Shown here piece after piece: positions 6,623 through 15,704 of a DNA stretch of 32,677 nt. Numbering within the stretch: position 1 is the first letter of the stretch; every line of letters starts with the position of its first letter. A program made the translations under genes and the position numbers. The stretch is taken from positions 1 to 32,677 of the forward strand of contig JAJUGK010000009.1 of NCBI GenBank assembly GCA_029268205.1. Reading direction: 5' to 3'. The notes under the pieces were generated by a model that did no database searches, was not told the DNA's origin, and was given only the letters and a program-made list of their open reading frames with translations. This DNA comes from Nocardioidaceae bacterium. GTDB lineage: Bacteria; Actinomycetota; Actinomycetes; Propionibacteriales; Nocardioidaceae.

Positions 6623-7627
6623 TCAACGCACCCGGCGGACGGCGACGGGCTCCACGACGCCGAAGCCGCGCAGCGGCCGCGCCGGCAGCGTCCGACTGGA
6701 GAACAGGTCGCCGGGGAGCACCGCGGCGGTGTCGGGGGCGACGATCACCCGGTTGCGCCGCGCGACGGCGGTCAACCGGGCCGCCAGGTTGACCGGCGGG
6801 CCGAACACGTCGCCCAGCCGCTGGGTGACGGTGCCGGAGGCCAGGCCGACGCGCACGTCGGGCAGCCGCTTGTCGCGGCCGATCACCTGGACGATGTCCT
6901 CGGCGATGTGGACGCCGGTGACCGGGTCCTCGGCGACGAAGAGCACCGAGTCGCCGATGCTCTTGATCACTCGGCCGCGCCGGCTGGCGACCACGTCGGT
7001 GCAGCGCGTCTCGAACACCTCGACCAGGTCGCCGATCTCGTCCTGGTTGAGCTGGTTCGACAGCGCGGTGAAGCCGACCAGGTCGGCGAAGCCGACGGTG
7101 ACCTCGGCGAGGTGCAACTCGCTGCCCGGGGTCTCCAGCGCCTCCAGCCGGCCGACGGCCACAGCGAGATGGCGCCGCCAGGCGTAGACCAGCAGTTCCT
7201 CGAAGGTGGGGCCGACGCGCTCGACCAGGTCGAGCGCGCCCTCGACCAGCTGCTCGGGTCCGCGCTGGAGCCGGCCGAGCTCCTCGACCCGGGTGCTCAG
7301 CGTCGCGACCTGCCAGTCGGCGAGCTTGCCCATCGTCTGGCCCAGGGCCCGGGTCAGCTGGACGGCGGTGTCGAGGTCGATCAGGTCGTCGCCGACGGCG
7401 GCGGTGATCAGCCCGAGCGCCTGGGCGTCGGCGGCCGAGAACGCCGCCTCGTCGCCGGCGTCGGGGAAGCCGAGCGCCCGCCACAGCCGGCGCGCGACGG
7501 TCTCGTCGACACCGGCAGCCGCGGCGACCTCGCCGCTGGTGAGCGCGGTCCCGCTCTCCCCGAGCCCGAGGATCGCCCGGGCCAGCTGATCGCGGGTCGA
7601 CGGGCGGGATTGGTCGGCAGCAGCCAT
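6623..7627 (-). CDS. Class III adenylate/guanylate cyclase with N-terminal regulatory helices
   Basis: Predicted cyclic-nucleotide synthase of 334 residues, soluble (no membrane segment). The catalytic domain (about 172-330) has a full set of residues: metal-binding Asp182 (FADLVGFT) and Asp226 (SIGDSVLFV), base-selecting Lys222 (VIKSIGD) and Asp273 (GDVFGPPVN), and transition-state residues Asn280 and Arg284 (VNLAARL). Lys plus Asp at the selection positions favour ATP. The first ~165 residues include a helix-turn-helix-like segment (LTSGEVAAAAGVDETVARRL, about 30-49), resembling the regulatory N-terminus of mycobacterial Rv2212-type cyclases. The ATG is 4 bases after the PH gene stop, so the two are co-transcribed. 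The signal is unknown. Confidence 0.9.
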   Translation of the reverse strand: MAAADQSRPSTRDQLARAILGLGESGTALTSGEVAAAAGVDETVARRLWRALGFPDAGDEAAFSAADAQALGLITAAVGDDLIDLDTAVQLTRALGQTMGKLADWQVATLSTRVEELGRLQRGPEQLVEGALDLVERVGPTFEELLVYAWRRHLAVAVGRLEALETPGSELHLAEVTVGFADLVGFTALSNQLNQDEIGDLVEVFETRCTDVVASRRGRVIKSIGDSVLFVAEDPVTGVHIAEDIVQVIGRDKRLPDVRVGLASGTVTQRLGDVFGPPVNLAARLTAVARRNRVIVAPDTAAVLPGDLFSSRTLPARPLRGFGVVEPVAVRRVR

Positions 7628-10936: not shown

Positions 10937-10990
10937 AGGTTGCGCCGAACCTGCAGAAACCTTGCACTTGCCATCGGTACGGGTTGCACC
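10937..10990 (+). promoter_or_regulatory. Repeat-rich leader region of the GT2 operon
   Basis: The 103-base spacer after accE holds AGGTT (10937-10941) / AACCT (10948-10952) as an inverted repeat with a 6-base centre, then TTGCAC twice (10962 and 10984) and GTGCACC beside the second copy. It is probably the promoter/operator zone of the glycosyltransferase. No convincing -10 or Shine-Dalgarno sequence could be fixed. Confidence 0.3.
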
Positions 10991-11011: not shown

Positions 11012-12529
11012 GTGAACGGGAACCAGGACTTCCCCTGGCCACGCGGCCAGGACACCGAGCAGAGCGCGCCCGCCCGGCCCTCTGCGCCTGATCCGTCCTA
11101 CGTGCGCTCGTTGCCCGCCCCGGACCCGGCGATGATGGCCTACGCCCCGGCGTTCCTCTCCAGCCTCGAGCAGATCCCGACCTACCGGCCGACCATCGGC
11201 TGCGTGATCCCCTGCTACAACGAGGAGGAGACGATCGCCGCGGTGCTGGACTCGCTGCTGAACCAGACCCGTCTCCCCGACGTCATCCACGTCATCGTCA
11301 ACAACACCACCGACGACACCGTCGAGGTCGCCAGCCACTACGCCGGCCTGCACGTGCGCGCCGACAAGCACGGCAACGAGCAGTCCTGCGAGATCTTCGT
11401 CCACGACATCGGCGAGAACCCCGACAAGAAGGTCGGGGCGCTCAACTACGGCTACTCCCTCGTCGAGGGGTGCGACTACCTGCTCGGCGTCGACGGCGAC
11501 ACCACCGCCGAGCCGAACGCCGTCCAGGCGCTGGTCGACGAGATCTCCAGCGACGACCGGATCGGCGGCATCTCCGCCATCTACAGCATCGACGACAGCG
11601 CGCTGAAGGGGCCGATGGCGAAGTTCCTGATCGCCGGCCAGCGCGCGCAGTTCGCCGCCTTCAACATGCAGAACCTGCTGCGGGGTCGCAACATGGCGGT
11701 CCTCGGCGGCCAGTTCTCGATCTTCTCCACGCACGCCCTGCGCGAGGTCGTGGAGCGCACCCACCAGCGCTACCCGTGGGTCCGCGACAGCGAGGTCGAG
11801 GACTCCCTGCTGTCGCTGGAGATCAAGAGCGCGGGCTACCTGACCAAGATCAGCGCCGTCGCCCGGGCCCACGTGGGAGGCATGACCACCCTGCGCGCGC
11901 TCGACGCCCAGCAGGTGAAGTGGAACTTCGGCGCGATCGAGCTCATGTGGCCCGGCCAGCGCGGCGACACCAAGGGTCAGCCGTTCCACCCGAACCTGCG
12001 CCTGCGGTGGTTCGAGCAGGCCTCGATGGTGCTCAACCTGATCACCCGGGTCGGCTTCTTCCTGCTGCTGGCCGGCTCGCTGTCGATCAGCGCGTTCGTG
12101 TTCAACCCGCTGTGGCTGATCCCACCGACGGTGGCGACCATCCTGAACCTCCGCGTGGCGCGCTCGATGCACTACGCGAACTCCCGCGACTACGTCTTCG
12201 CGCTGTGCATCGTCTTCGCCGAGGCCTACATGTGGATCCGCCTGGGCCACTTCGTGCGCTCGTGGGCGAAGTTCGCCAGCCGCACCCAAACCGACAACTG
12301 GGCCGCTCAGGCCAAGGCCGAACGGGGATCGGGCAACAGCCACTGGACGCCGGTGATCGTGCTGGTCGTCTTCCTGGGGGCGATGGCGGCGATCTGGCTG
12401 CAACTGCCGATCGGCACCAAGTCCGACATCCTCGCGGTCGGCTGGCCGATCCTCGGCGCGATCACCATCGCGCAGACCGCCTGGATGGGATTGAAGATCC
12501 TGCGACGCTACAAGGGGTTCAAGGCATGA
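11012..12529 (+). CDS. Processive family-2 glycosyltransferase (polysaccharide synthase-like)
   Basis: Membrane glycosyltransferase of about 505 residues. The cytosolic GT-A domain (about 60-310) begins PTIGCVIPCYNEEETI, with UDP-sugar/metal Asp161-Gly-Asp163 (GVDGDTTAEP), the general-base Glu263-Asp264 (SEVEDSLLSLEI) and a QxxKW motif at Gln300-Trp304, where cellulose, chitin and hyaluronan synthases have QxxRW. About five hydrophobic segments follow (roughly 340-385, 400-418, 447-466, 475-495), consistent with synthesis coupled to export. There is no PilZ domain. GTG 11012 is chosen over a long in-frame extension upstream; ATG 11132 is another possibility. The stop overlaps the lipoprotein ATG by 4 bases. 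The polymer is unknown; a beta-glucan is suggested by the GH6 gene opposite. Confidence 0.85.
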   Translation: MNGNQDFPWPRGQDTEQSAPARPSAPDPSYVRSLPAPDPAMMAYAPAFLSSLEQIPTYRPTIGCVIPCYNEEETIAAVLDSLLNQTRLPDVIHVIVNNTTDDTVEVASHYAGLHVRADKHGNEQSCEIFVHDIGENPDKKVGALNYGYSLVEGCDYLLGVDGDTTAEPNAVQALVDEISSDDRIGGISAIYSIDDSALKGPMAKFLIAGQRAQFAAFNMQNLLRGRNMAVLGGQFSIFSTHALREVVERTHQRYPWVRDSEVEDSLLSLEIKSAGYLTKISAVARAHVGGMTTLRALDAQQVKWNFGAIELMWPGQRGDTKGQPFHPNLRLRWFEQASMVLNLITRVGFFLLLAGSLSISAFVFNPLWLIPPTVATILNLRVARSMHYANSRDYVFALCIVFAEAYMWIRLGHFVRSWAKFASRTQTDNWAAQAKAERGSGNSHWTPVIVLVVFLGAMAAIWLQLPIGTKSDILAVGWPILGAITIAQTAWMGLKILRRYKGFKA

Positions 12530-13245
12530 CGACCACCACCACCCGCCGCACCCGTGCTGCGCTCGCGCTCGCGGCCGCCCTCAGCGTGCTGCTCTCCGGC
12601 TGCGGGCTGCTCGGCGACCTCACCGCCGCCGACCCGGAGCCCACTCCGGTCGCGACGCCGTCGAAGAACCCGACGCCGTACCCGACGCAGTTCACCAACG
12701 ACGGCACCTTCCAGTCCCACACCCGGGTCCGCAACCTCGACTTCGTCTACACCCTGTGGCCGACCAAGGCGACGCCGGAGACGAACCTGTGGTTCCCCCG
12801 GGGCAACAAGCACTTCTCCTTCACCCTCACCGCCTACGACCTGAACCGGAAGCTGCGCGACCGCTTCGCCACCAAGCGCAAGGTGTGGTTGGGCAACATC
12901 ACGGTCACCTCGCAGACCAAGACGACCTCCGGCGTGGTCGAGGAGCCCTACTACCTCGACGCCCAGGCCCGGCGCATCACCTTCGACCCGGAGCCGGTCA
13001 CCAACAAGCACGGCATGCTCATCACCTCGCCCAAGGGCGCCTTCGAGCTGCGCAACCAGACCATCGGGACCCTCGACCCGGACACGATCGGGGTCGACCT
13101 GATGTTCCGCGCGACGGTCTACATCGAGACCCGGGCGGGCGCGGACCGCTACCGGCGCAAGATCATCCGGCAGAAGGTCCCGATGTCGATCTTCCCCTCC
13201 GAGCTGACCACCCAGGTCACGAAGATCCCGTTCACCGCGAACTGA
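12526..13245 (+). CDS. Secreted lipoprotein linked to the GT2 synthase
   Basis: A 239-residue protein with a Thr/Arg-rich N-terminus, a hydrophobic helix and the lipobox LLSGC; Cys26 should be lipidated, leaving the rest outside on the membrane. After a Pro/Thr linker (about 38-55) comes a ~180-residue domain rich in beta-strand-like stretches (KHFSFTLTAYDLNRKLRDRF, VWLGNITVTSQTK). I do not recognise the family. The ATG overlaps the GT2 stop by 4 bases, which argues for joint action, for instance receiving or guiding the polymer as it emerges. An 11-base tandem repeat straddles the stop codon. Confidence 0.8.
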   Translation: MTTTTTRRTRAALALAAALSVLLSGCGLLGDLTAADPEPTPVATPSKNPTPYPTQFTNDGTFQSHTRVRNLDFVYTLWPTKATPETNLWFPRGNKHFSFTLTAYDLNRKLRDRFATKRKVWLGNITVTSQTKTTSGVVEEPYYLDAQARRITFDPEPVTNKHGMLITSPKGAFELRNQTIGTLDPDTIGVDLMFRATVYIETRAGADRYRRKIIRQKVPMSIFPSELTTQVTKIPFTAN

Positions 13246-13261
13246 CCGCGAACTGACCGCG
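13234..13261 (+). repeat. 11-base tandem repeat at the lipoprotein stop
   Basis: ACCGCGAACTG occurs at 13234-13244 and 13245-13255, followed by a partial third copy ACCGCG. The first stop codon TGA (13243-13245) lies across the junction, and the second copy is untranslated. It may be replication slippage, and it fills most of the 33-base convergent spacer. Confidence 0.8.
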
Positions 13262-13278
13262 GTGCGGCCGGCCCCGGC

Positions 13279-14250
13279 TCAGTCGGGGACGGCCAGCCGG
13301 TAGCCCACCCCGCGCACGGTCTCGATCCAGCGCGGGGTGGCGCCGTCGTCGCCGATCTTGCGGCGGATGCTCTCGATGTGGCCCTCGACCTCACGCTTGT
13401 CGGCCTCGTTGACGAAGTACGCGGTGACGTAGTTCTGCCCGCGCATGGTGAGCACGAGGTCGGCCTTGCTCCGGACGCGGCGTCCGGACATCAGCAGCGA
13501 GGTGAGCAGCTCGAACTCCACGCTGGTGAGGTCGATGGTGCGCTGGCCGACCGTGACGACCCGCTGGTCGGTGTTGACCGCGAGCTCGCCGACCCGGATC
13601 CACCCGCCGGTCGGGGTGACCTGGGGCTCGGGGGCGTACGGCAGCTCGGTCCGGGTGGGTTCCGGAGCCGCGGGCTGGGCGACCGGCTGGGTGGCTGGCT
13701 GGGGGGCCGGCGGGGACTGCTTGGCGGGCGGCGCGGAGGTGCCGGCGATCGGGCGGACGCCCGCACCGTCGCTGAGCTGGCGGGCGGCCTGCTCGGCCCA
13801 GGTCTCGGTGGGTGCCGGCGCGGGGGCGGGTGCCGGCGGTGGCGCCTGGATCGGCTCGTTCGGGCCGGTGCGGTGGCGCGGTCGCCGCAGCATCGACTCC
13901 GCCCGGGCGCGCAGCTCCCGGGGCCGGAACGGCTTGACGAGGTAGTCGTCGGCGCCGGCCTCCAGGCCGGAGATCACGTCGATCTCGTCGCCGAGACCGG
14001 TGATCATGATCAGGTAGGTCTGGCTGAACTCACGGATCCGCTTGGCCACGGCGAAGCCGTCCATACCGGGCATGTTGACGTCGAGCGTCGTCAGCAGCGG
14101 GTTGTGCGCCCGCACCGCCTCGAGGCCCTCGGGACCGTCGGTGGCCACCACCGTTCGGAAGCCGCTCTGGGTGAGGACCGTGTCGAGGAGCATCCGTACG
14201 TCGGGCTCGTCCTCGATGATGACGGCCACCCAGGCCTCGGCTGGATCCAT
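13279..14250 (-). CDS. OmpR-family response regulator with long Pro/Ala linker
   Basis: A 323-residue two-domain regulator. The receiver (about 7-125) has IIEDEPDVRM, the phospho-acceptor Asp57 in TTLDVNMPGMDG, the switch Thr in MITGLGDE and Lys in YLVKPFRP. A ~95-residue linker made mostly of Pro, Ala, Gln and Thr (about 135-225) joins it to a C-terminal winged helix: TIDLTSVEFELLTSLLMSGR, then HIESIRRKIGDD and ETVRGVGYRLAVPD. No kinase gene is adjacent. It lies 82 bases downstream of the GH6 gene on the same strand and converges on the GT2/lipoprotein operon, so control of that surface-polymer locus is a reasonable inference. Confidence 0.9.
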   Translation of the reverse strand: MDPAEAWVAVIIEDEPDVRMLLDTVLTQSGFRTVVATDGPEGLEAVRAHNPLLTTLDVNMPGMDGFAVAKRIREFSQTYLIMITGLGDEIDVISGLEAGADDYLVKPFRPRELRARAESMLRRPRHRTGPNEPIQAPPPAPAPAPAPTETWAEQAARQLSDGAGVRPIAGTSAPPAKQSPPAPQPATQPVAQPAAPEPTRTELPYAPEPQVTPTGGWIRVGELAVNTDQRVVTVGQRTIDLTSVEFELLTSLLMSGRRVRSKADLVLTMRGQNYVTAYFVNEADKREVEGHIESIRRKIGDDGATPRWIETVRGVGYRLAVPD

Positions 14251-14332
14251 GGGGGCGACTCTAACAACGGCGGCGGCCCTCACCCGCCGCAATGCCGGAT
14301 CCGGACTGCAAGGATCACCGAAGTTCCAGCGG

Positions 14333-15403
14333 CTACCAGCCGGCCCCGCGGGCGAGCGAGACGGCGCGCTCGGGCCAGAACTCGCCAGCGGGTGGTCCGC
14401 CGTTGCAGGTCCCGTCGCTCTCCCCCGGCGGTTTGACCCACAGCCGGGCGTCCCACGGGTCCTCACCGGAGGTCGGCGCCGGCGGGGCCCCGAGCGCCAG
14501 GCCGGTGGCGTTGCAATAGGTCGCGCCCGCGCCGTTGCCGTTGCGTCCGGTGTCGACCACAGCGTGCACCGGCGCGGGCAAGGCGGCGTTGATCGCCCGC
14601 GCGTAGGCGAGCTCGAGCGCCTCGGGCTGGGAGTTGGCGACGTTGGTGGCGAAACCGCGCACCCGTTCGACGCCGACGTCGACGAGCAGGGCCGCCACCT
14701 CCTCGGCCGAGCGCCAGCCGGAGTGCCCGGCGTCGACGTAGACCGCGGCCCGGGACTCGGCGAGGACACCGACCGCCGAGCGCAGCAGGCCGATCCGCGA
14801 CTCGAGCTCGGCGCACTCCAAGGTCGCCACCAGCGCGTCGGGCTCGAGCACCACCGCGGCCCGCTCGGCCCGGCCGAGCCCGTCGGCGATCGCCCCGATC
14901 CAGGCGAGGTACTCGTCCCCGGCGAGCCCGCCGGCGGAGAACCCCCCGGTGCAGTCCCGCTGCGGGACGCCGTAGACCACCAGCACCGGCACCGCGTCCC
15001 CGGCGTCGTCGACGATGCGCTCCACGTGCCGGGCGACCGAGTCGACCCCGTGCTCCTCCGGCACGAGCCAGATGCCCTGCGGCGTCGCAGCCAGCCGGCG
15101 CAGGGTCGCCGCGTCCGGGCTGCCCGCCTGCTCGGCCTTGGCCGCCGCCCGGGCCGTGCGGGAGTCGGGGTCGGCATACATCGCCCGGTCGGTGAACGGA
15201 CTGACCTCCTGCGACCCCGGCGCCCACGGTGGCCGGAAACCCGCGAGGAGTCCGAGGACGCCGCTGAGGACGAGCGTCACGACCACCACGCCGACGACGG
15301 CGACCGGCGCCACAACCCACCACGACGGCCGGCGCCGCGGGGGCGCTGCGGGCTCCTCGAAGAGGTGGGACCATCCGGAGGTCGGGCGTTCGTCGGGGTC
15401 CAC
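14333..15403 (-). CDS. Membrane-anchored glycoside hydrolase family 6 (endoglucanase-like)
   Basis: A 356-residue type II membrane protein: a short cytosolic tail, one membrane helix (about 28-55) and an extracellular GH6 domain. GH6 enzymes cut beta-1,4-glucan with inversion. Family landmarks: VVYGVPQRDCTGGFSAGG (Asp150), VVLEPDAL with the general acid Asp189, VDAGHSGW, GFATNVANSQ, VDTGRNGNG and WVKPPGESDG with Asp330; the three key aspartates are kept. Thr after RDC deviates from the usual GH6 signature. GTG 15403 is preferred over an ATG further up because a -10 box lies 6 bases before it. No cellulose-binding domain is present, so a role in trimming the cell's own glucan is more likely than foraging. 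Confidence 0.9.
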   Translation of the reverse strand: MDPDERPTSGWSHLFEEPAAPPRRRPSWWVVAPVAVVGVVVVTLVLSGVLGLLAGFRPPWAPGSQEVSPFTDRAMYADPDSRTARAAAKAEQAGSPDAATLRRLAATPQGIWLVPEEHGVDSVARHVERIVDDAGDAVPVLVVYGVPQRDCTGGFSAGGLAGDEYLAWIGAIADGLGRAERAAVVLEPDALVATLECAELESRIGLLRSAVGVLAESRAAVYVDAGHSGWRSAEEVAALLVDVGVERVRGFATNVANSQPEALELAYARAINAALPAPVHAVVDTGRNGNGAGATYCNATGLALGAPPAPTSGEDPWDARLWVKPPGESDGTCNGGPPAGEFWPERAVSLARGAGW

Positions 15404-15434: not shown

Positions 15435-15704
15435 ATGTGCCGCAACATCCGCACCCTCCACAACTTCGCGCCCCCGGCCACCGACGACGAGGTGCAGGCC
15501 GCGGCGCTGCAGTACGTCCGCAAGATCAGCGGCACCTCGAAGCCATCCCGGGCCAACCAGGAGGCCTTCGACGCGGCGGTCCGTGAGATCGCCGCCACCA
15601 CGCGCGACCTGCTCGACCGCCTCACCACCTCCGCTCCGCCCAAGGACCGCGAGGTCGAGGCGGCCAAGGCCCGCGCACGTGCTGAGCTCCGCTACGCGCG
15701 CTGA
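15435..15704 (+). CDS. DUF2277 family protein
   Basis: A small 89-residue soluble protein beginning MCRNIRTLHNF, the diagnostic start of the DUF2277 family, and containing VRKISGTSKPSRANQEAFD, then a helical, charged C-terminus. No function is known for the family. The conserved Cys2 at the extreme N-terminus is notable. It overlaps the start of the sirtuin gene by 26 bases, so both are probably made from one transcript. Confidence 0.88.
   Translation: MCRNIRTLHNFAPPATDDEVQAAALQYVRKISGTSKPSRANQEAFDAAVREIAATTRDLLDRLTTSAPPKDREVEAAKARARAELRYAR

Follow-up and report, generated by a model that had tools for sequence, protein, structure and literature searches.

A candidate surface-polysaccharide locus of Nocardioidaceae and Microbacteriaceae with a GT2 synthase, a lipoprotein, a response regulator and a GH6 glycanase

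Precedents for a bacterial polysaccharide synthase that works with an unrelated partner protein and an endoglucanase are CslA-GlxA-CslZ of Streptomyces and CcsA-CcsB-CcsZ of clostridia (PMC11022532, PMC7710045). In the Streptomyces cslA-glxA-cslZ (lpmP) locus, which is devoted to an actinobacterial surface glycan, a synthase of glycosyltransferase family 2 (GT2) is coupled to an exported partner, the copper oxidase GlxA, and is adjoined by a lipid-anchored enzyme of glycoside hydrolase family 6 (GH6) that has no binding module (PMC11022532, PMC9040799); this enzyme, CslZ, acts in S. coelicolor on cellulose, peptidoglycan and alpha-chitin (PMC9040799, PMC11022532). The clostridial ccsZABHI locus combines CcsA, a BcsA homologue, with a partner other than BcsB and with CcsZ, a cognate endoglucanase of family GH5, whereas BcsZ belongs to GH8 (PMC7710045). 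In the ydaJKLMN cluster of Bacillus subtilis, a degenerate GGDEF membrane protein, YdaK, which retains the I-site that binds cyclic di-GMP (c-di-GMP), is encoded next to the synthase proteins YdaM and YdaN (PMC7064775). Here we analyse a stretch of 32,677 nucleotides (hereafter the window), namely contig C9 (JAJUGK010000009.1) of the assembly GCA_029268205.1, a 2.6 Mb genome in 198 contigs that is 81% complete and whose relatives are Nocardioidaceae-like, and describe in it a four-gene locus encoding a GT2 of processive type, a coupled lipoprotein, a response regulator of the OmpR/PhoB family and a GH6 glycanase (Table 1).

The window's locus resembles that of Streptomyces in the coupling of a GT2 to an exported partner and in the adjoining membrane-bound GH6 without a binding module, but its partner is a lipoprotein unrelated to GlxA, its synthase is not of the CslA/BcsA type (TED, QxxRW, FxVTxK and PilZ are all missing), its GH6 is held by a transmembrane (TM) segment instead of a lipid, and a response regulator with an operator forms part of the locus. 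It shares with the clostridial system the combination of a synthase, a non-BcsB partner and an endoglucanase of another glycoside hydrolase family, but its synthase belongs to another family and the role of glycanase falls to GH6 or GH8. The degenerate GGDEF membrane protein beside a GT2 recurs in the related loci of Microbacteriaceae and Aeromicrobium, but it lacks there the RxxD residues that YdaK keeps, and no GGDEF protein was found in the window's genus. Among the families sampled, the PgaC/IcaA synthases of poly-beta-1,6-N-acetylglucosamine (GlcNAc) are the nearest named one by hidden Markov model score and by tree, but the score of 43 bits compares with a cut-off of 422, the locus GT2 is without QxxRW, and the companion genes are other ones. 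Cel6/CelA1 of Mycobacterium tuberculosis has its catalytic-site residues in common with the locus GH6, but the window's enzyme has a TM anchor and its gene adjoins that of a glycan synthase. On the strength of the comparisons below, we propose, with a probability of about 0.6, that a surface polysaccharide is synthesised, exported and trimmed by the products of the locus, and that it is most likely a beta-1,4-linked glucan or has such a glucan as its backbone.

Co-inheritance of the four genes

That the synthase, the lipoprotein, the regulator and the GH6 form one co-inherited functional unit is well supported by genome comparison. A GT2-based scan of genome contigs yielded 193 confirmed relatives; the 80 that rank highest lie in Nocardioides, Aeromicrobium and Microbacteriaceae, the last including Labedella, Agreia, Cryobacterium, Plantibacter, Herbiconiux and Curtobacterium. 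Where 4.5 kb or more of sequence followed the GT2, the lipoprotein, regulator and GH6 were kept in 41 of 43 Nocardioidaceae-type loci, and the regulator and GH6 in 22 of 24 loci of Microbacteriaceae, most of which have a histidine kinase and a degenerate GGDEF protein in addition to the shared core. A second sample comprised 149 genomes of the source family and gave counts that are not phylogenetically independent: the GT2 occurs in 35 of these genomes, the lipoprotein occurs in those 35 and in no others, and a locus-type GH6 occurs in all 35, in 34 of them on the GT2 contig and within a few kb, while the GH6 proteins of three additional family genomes reach identities of at most 46%. Within genera the locus is patchy, which speaks against simple vertical inheritance of a fixed core; the same gene order recurs in dozens of genomes, so that the arrangement is not one of chance.

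In the window, the GT2 stop codon overlaps the lipoprotein ATG at 12526 in the sequence ATGA, which points to translational coupling; the GH6 and regulator genes are co-directional with 82 bp between them, and the two pairs are convergent. The earlier note on this DNA, made from the window alone, had proposed these four genes as a unit, with DxD, ED and QxxKW motifs in the GT2, a lipoprotein coupled to it where a GlxA-like oxidase might stand, and a membrane anchor but no binding module in the GH6, and had suggested co-conservation in related genomes as a check. Its gene calls are borne out by open reading frames, Pfam matches, motifs and recurrence, the co-conservation holds in the samples above, and the particulars of the synthase, of the 239-residue partner and of the glycanase agree with what is described in the next section.

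Two further observations concern the layout: a few Nocardioides (L054, L039 and L041) have an extra 1-3 kb inserted between the lipoprotein and regulator genes, and genome G354 (C1:2759948-2761315, L136) has two copies of the GT2-lipoprotein-regulator set, only one of them with a GH6.

Table 1. Features of the glycan locus in the window
Feature	Coordinates	Strand	Basis and remarks
GT2, processive-type	11012..12529	+	GTG start; Pfam PF00535, 1.4e-18
Lipoprotein	12526..13245	+	ATG start; 239 aa; lipobox LSGC, Cys26; no Pfam family
OmpR/PhoB-family response regulator	13279..14250	-	PF00072, 3.5e-23; PF00486, 3.1e-15
Membrane-anchored GH6 glycanase	14333..15403	-	GTG at 15403; PF01341, 180 bits, 9.3e-53
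Probable regulator operator 5' of GT2	10939..10967	+	Three heptamers, 11-bp pitch; family-wide repeat comparison

The synthase, its lipoprotein partner and the glycanases

With several membrane helices on the C-terminal side of a cytosolic GT-A domain, the GT2 is predicted to be a membrane-embedded synthase of the processive type. An alignment of 33 members, with a mean column identity of 70%, has the motifs VDGDT, EVED and QQVKW invariant or nearly so, and the signature QQVKWN-x-GA-x2-LMWPGQRGDT-x-GQP-x-HPNLRLRW. Compared with BcsA, PgaC, IcaA and four actinobacterial CelA-like proteins, however, these motifs depart from those of cellulose synthases: the DxD, nearly invariant as VDGDT, is without the subsequent His of the DxDH found in BcsA/CelA; S-E-V/I-E-D (EVED) stands where TED is expected; the QQVKW, invariant in the 33 members, has Lys in place of the cellulose-synthase Arg of QxxRW; and the position of the FxVTxK gating loop reads DNWA-x-QAKAE. 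Pfam finds no PilZ domain in the protein, which ends after its last helix, and the CelA profile TIGR03030 has no match in the source genome. In a tree whose long branches and small sample make it usable only for the separation from BcsA/CelA, and in which L119-L122 alone stood for the CelA-like set (L118 and L123-L127 were excluded as being in the wrong frame or too short), the GT2 lies apart from BcsA/CelA with support of 100/100 and groups with a Lacticaseibacillus plasmid GT2 and then with PgaC/IcaA. On these grounds, namely the missing motifs, PilZ domain and TIGR03030 match and the separate position in the tree, we rejected the label of a BcsA/CslA-type cellulose synthase, and with it the cellulose-type synthase that the earlier note had in mind.

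The best named family by score, PgaC/IcaA (TIGR03937), reaches 43.3 bits where the curated cut-off is 422.3, and the synthase appears to match no described family. In a Foldseek search with its AlphaFold model (pLDDT 75), hyaluronan synthases come top (7sp7, 1.4e-12), then chitin synthases, then BcsA (5.7e-8), and the match to these membrane-integrated synthases runs the whole length of the model; the structural alignment with hyaluronan synthases extends over about 350 residues (Z 17-18, root-mean-square deviation about 6 Å, identity 11-15%), a likeness between model and structure that is best read as a common architecture and no guide to specificity. The plasmid GT2 just mentioned, from the conjugative plasmid pLPCN-1 of Lacticaseibacillus paracasei (L130, 5932-7416), is 25% identical over 88% of the protein and has similar GGQ-x-S and DGWA-x-Q signatures, which hints at a wider Gram-positive subfamily.

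The lipobox cysteine of the lipoprotein follows a hydrophobic signal and is invariant in 40 homologues. A Pfam search with 18 members found no family, a sequence search of the PDB no relative, and NCBIfam nothing convincing. The model (pLDDT 84) consists of one beta-sandwich domain, at about residues 57-227, and its fold matches, an arrestin/ApaG-like sandwich (best Z 9.4) as well as transglutaminase, would reflect a common beta sandwich and name no function. In Microbacteriaceae the close match is lost, and the GT2 is preceded instead by a lipoprotein gene of divergent orientation; the two kinds are homologous (hhalign probability 98.2%, E 4e-14, 26% identity over 194 columns), and with both profiles all 56 Nocardioidaceae-type loci and 27 of the 28 from Microbacteriaceae show a partner at the GT2. 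Two further families have it as well: in G063 its gene precedes that of the GT2 by 3 bp, and in G348 it follows the GT2 immediately; the family of G348 has it at 10 of 13 GT2 loci. Judged by gene neighbourhood, the lipoprotein is the most constant partner of the GT2, across four actinobacterial families, and the comparison supports its being a dedicated one.

The GH6 has a single N-terminal TM segment and no binding module, and its profile score compares with a cut-off of 27 bits. Its best solved relative is M. tuberculosis Cel6/CelA1 (1uoz, 1.1e-56), with the Thermobifida endoglucanase E2 ranking lower. The aspartates of the catalytic motifs (Asp150, 189, 224, 284 and 330) are invariant across 66 locus GH6 proteins, nearly all of which carry at the N terminus a hydrophobic anchor or a lipobox, so the enzyme is predicted to be catalytically complete and anchored outside the membrane. 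In G348 the GT2-lipoprotein pair is followed on the same strand by a gene for a GH8 enzyme (PF01270, 7.6e-32; TM-anchored by sequence), and in G547 a GH8 gene likewise lies beside the pair. The presence at the same place of GH6 and GH8, which are unrelated but both have beta-1,4-glucanase activity, argues for a beta-1,4-glucan-like product.

Elsewhere in the source genome, contig C55 encodes a second secreted GH6 (L015, 11426-14208) that is 42% identical and adjoins a gene for a 425-residue protein with a helical WXG100-like start and a hydrophobic middle, together with other unannotated genes. Neither this nor the third GH6 of the genome had a paired GT2 of the locus type, as judged by tblastn over the stretches around them.

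The operator, the regulator and the signal

The regulator consists of a receiver domain and a winged helix joined by a long Pro-rich linker. Across 70 locus regulators Asp57 and Lys106 are invariant and position 84 is Thr or Ser (Thr84 in the window copy), and the protein is predicted to be competent for phosphorylation. No histidine kinase gene is adjacent to it in the window, and a search of the source genome for a dedicated kinase gave generic kinase-domain matches only, among which no ortholog is callable.

Upstream of the GT2 lies a triple direct repeat with the consensus CTTGAGC-N4-CTTGAGG-N4-CTTGAGG and an 11-bp pitch. A direct-repeat layout of this pitch is typical of operators of the PhoB/OmpR class, which makes the neighbouring regulator the likely binder of the predicted repeat and fits the earlier note's view of the regulator as part of the unit. 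Of the 86 GT2 upstream regions, 36 agree with the consensus at 14 or more of 18 positions, as no random control segment does, an enrichment that is partly circular, since the repeat hexamer was derived from the same regions; the pitch, only that of 11 bp being enriched, and the location are not circular. Over 2.9 Mb of loci, searched on both strands, there are 32 sites with at least 15 matches, 28 of them no more than 300 bp upstream of a GT2 and on its strand, and none was found ahead of a lipoprotein, regulator or GH6 gene. The remaining four, in L023, L037 and L061, lie about 1.4 kb upstream of the GT2, near or ahead of a gene that comes before the GT2 in loci of that group and whose product is a CarboxypepD_reg-like secreted protein; this CarboxypepD_reg-repeat protein is probably an extra component of the system. 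Several Aeromicrobium loci have a gene of the CarboxypepD_reg family beside the GH6. The window's own copy of the repeat, GTTGCGC-CGAA-CCTGCAG-AAAC-CTTGCAC, is diverged and is conserved in two congeners. No Rfam RNA or riboswitch was found upstream of the GT2 at the gathering threshold.

Immediately upstream, the loci of Microbacteriaceae and Aeromicrobium have genes for a PAS histidine kinase and for a membrane protein whose GGDEF domain is degenerate, without the GGDEF residues and, as read by eye, without the RxxD I-site. The GGDEF profile PF00990 has no match in three genomes of the window's genus, one of them complete (G000, G001 and G002), which makes canonical c-di-GMP control unlikely there.

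Beyond the locus, a small protein gene starting MCRNIRTLHNFAPP (15437-15704, +) lies divergently beside the GH6 and is followed by a sirtuin-like gene, neither with a visible tie to the glycan locus. A few kb upstream, a class III adenylate/guanylate cyclase with a regulatory domain (PF00211, PF16701) is encoded at 6623-7627 (-), and genes of this family adjoin the glycan locus in many Nocardioides.

The product and competing explanations

In the mechanism that we propose, the GT2 would polymerise a uridine diphosphate (UDP)-activated sugar, probably UDP-glucose, at the inner face of the membrane and would pass the chain across by way of its own membrane helices. The lipoprotein may take or guide the chain outside, or stabilise the active synthase, as BcsB, CcsB and GlxA do elsewhere, a role suggested by its position and by the precedent of those unrelated partners (PMC11022532); the GH6 may trim or release chains, or open a path through the peptidoglycan as has been proposed for CslZ. 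The phosphorylated regulator would bind the triple direct repeat before the GT2 and turn synthesis on, with the signal probably provided in Microbacteriaceae and Aeromicrobium by the PAS kinase and the degenerate GGDEF protein, and the window's genus, which is without the GGDEF part, presumably relying on an unlinked kinase. A glucan product is plausible, and the cellulose-synthase label fails its tests. A more specific proposal is that the genes encode a beta-1,4-glucan synthase complex of independent, non-BcsA/CslA origin (QxxKW), with an undescribed lipoprotein partner, a dedicated two-component operator and a cellulose-like product; this we put forward tentatively, as a possibility that is less likely than not.

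Several observations weigh against the proposal of a trimmed beta-1,4-glucan. The synthase lacks the cellulose-synthase motifs and is nearer to PgaC/IcaA than to BcsA, so that its sugar cannot be read from the sequence, and its model is of middling confidence; the breadth of CslZ on peptidoglycan and chitin means that a GH6 is no proof of a glucan. In G348 (L135, 1891-13252) genes for a UDP-glucose dehydrogenase and for two right-handed beta-helix proteins precede the GT2-lipoprotein-GH8 set, which suggests a glucuronic or uronic acid, or an epimerase or lyase step, in the family of that genome. The lipoprotein is absent beside the GT2 in L014, L090 and L162-L164, and the window's operator copy is weak, with 11 of 18 matches. 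At the level of 61-64% GT2 identity, the genomes G063 and G348 have no GH6 and that of G037 has an unlinked one, and in most of the distant f6 loci no GH6 or GH8 was recognised nearby. The earlier note had held that independent occurrence of GT2 and GH6 in relatives would speak against it: at this distance the pairing does come apart, but in G348 and G547 a GH8 is found in place of the GH6, so that a beta-1,4-glucan is still a likely product.

Some of the same evidence would agree with an amino-sugar polymer, either chitin-like or poly-GlcNAc-like, or with a mixed polymer of GlcNAc and glucuronic acid, provided that the GH6 either has a loose specificity or attacks peptidoglycan so that the polymer can pass. 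PgaC/IcaA is the nearest named family by score, the tree puts the GT2 on the PgaC/IcaA side, hyaluronan and chitin synthases are the top fold matches, a UDP-glucose dehydrogenase adjoins the G348 locus, and CslZ, itself a GH6, is active on peptidoglycan and alpha-chitin (PMC9040799, PMC11022532). Such a product nevertheless seems to us unlikely, if not negligibly so: the 43 bits lie far under the PgaC cut-off of 422, the neighbouring genes that were examined include no identified deacetylase of the PgaB/IcaB kind, and GH6 and GH8, both found at the locus, are unrelated families whose common activity is that of a beta-1,4-glucanase. Since some GH6 and GH8 enzymes cleave mixed-linkage glucan, the two families would also suit a mixed-linkage (1,3;1,4)-beta-glucan, or a decorated glucan, in place of plain cellulose. 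A Gram-positive GT2, RiGT2, can indeed make mixed-linkage glucan, but RiGT2 and BgsA carry QxxRW, and RiGT2 also a PilZ domain (PMC10374906), neither of which the locus GT2 has, and we consider this product distinctly improbable.

The least probable explanation, in our judgement, is that the true unit is the GT2-lipoprotein pair and that the GH6 and regulator are separate neighbours, the former being for instance a secreted scavenging cellulase. It would account for G063 and G348, where the pair occurs with no GH6 in the genome, and for the lack of an operator copy in the GH6 upstream region, but it sits poorly with the finding that GT2, lipoprotein and locus GH6 are present in the same genomes among the 149, with the gene order conserved in most loci of two families, with a GH6 that is membrane-anchored and without a binding module, and with the substitution of GH8 for GH6 in G348 and G547.

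No description of this gene set in Nocardioides or Microbacteriaceae was found in a search of the literature that had subscription journals mostly outside its reach. The type of system, consisting of a synthase, an unrelated partner and a cognate glycanase, is already known, and the locus is a new variant of it in its synthase subfamily, its partner family and its control. If the proposal of a trimmed beta-1,4-glucan-like polymer is true, then many Nocardioides, Aeromicrobium, Cryobacterium, Agreia, Plantibacter and related soil and plant bacteria would have an undescribed polysaccharide system, which would be a second actinobacterial route to a cellulose-like coat and would give a role to a lipoprotein family that is without annotation. 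The locus would also allow one to ask whether the synthesis of beta-1,4-glucan has evolved outside the BcsA line, and its operator sequence is clear enough for tracing the regulon.

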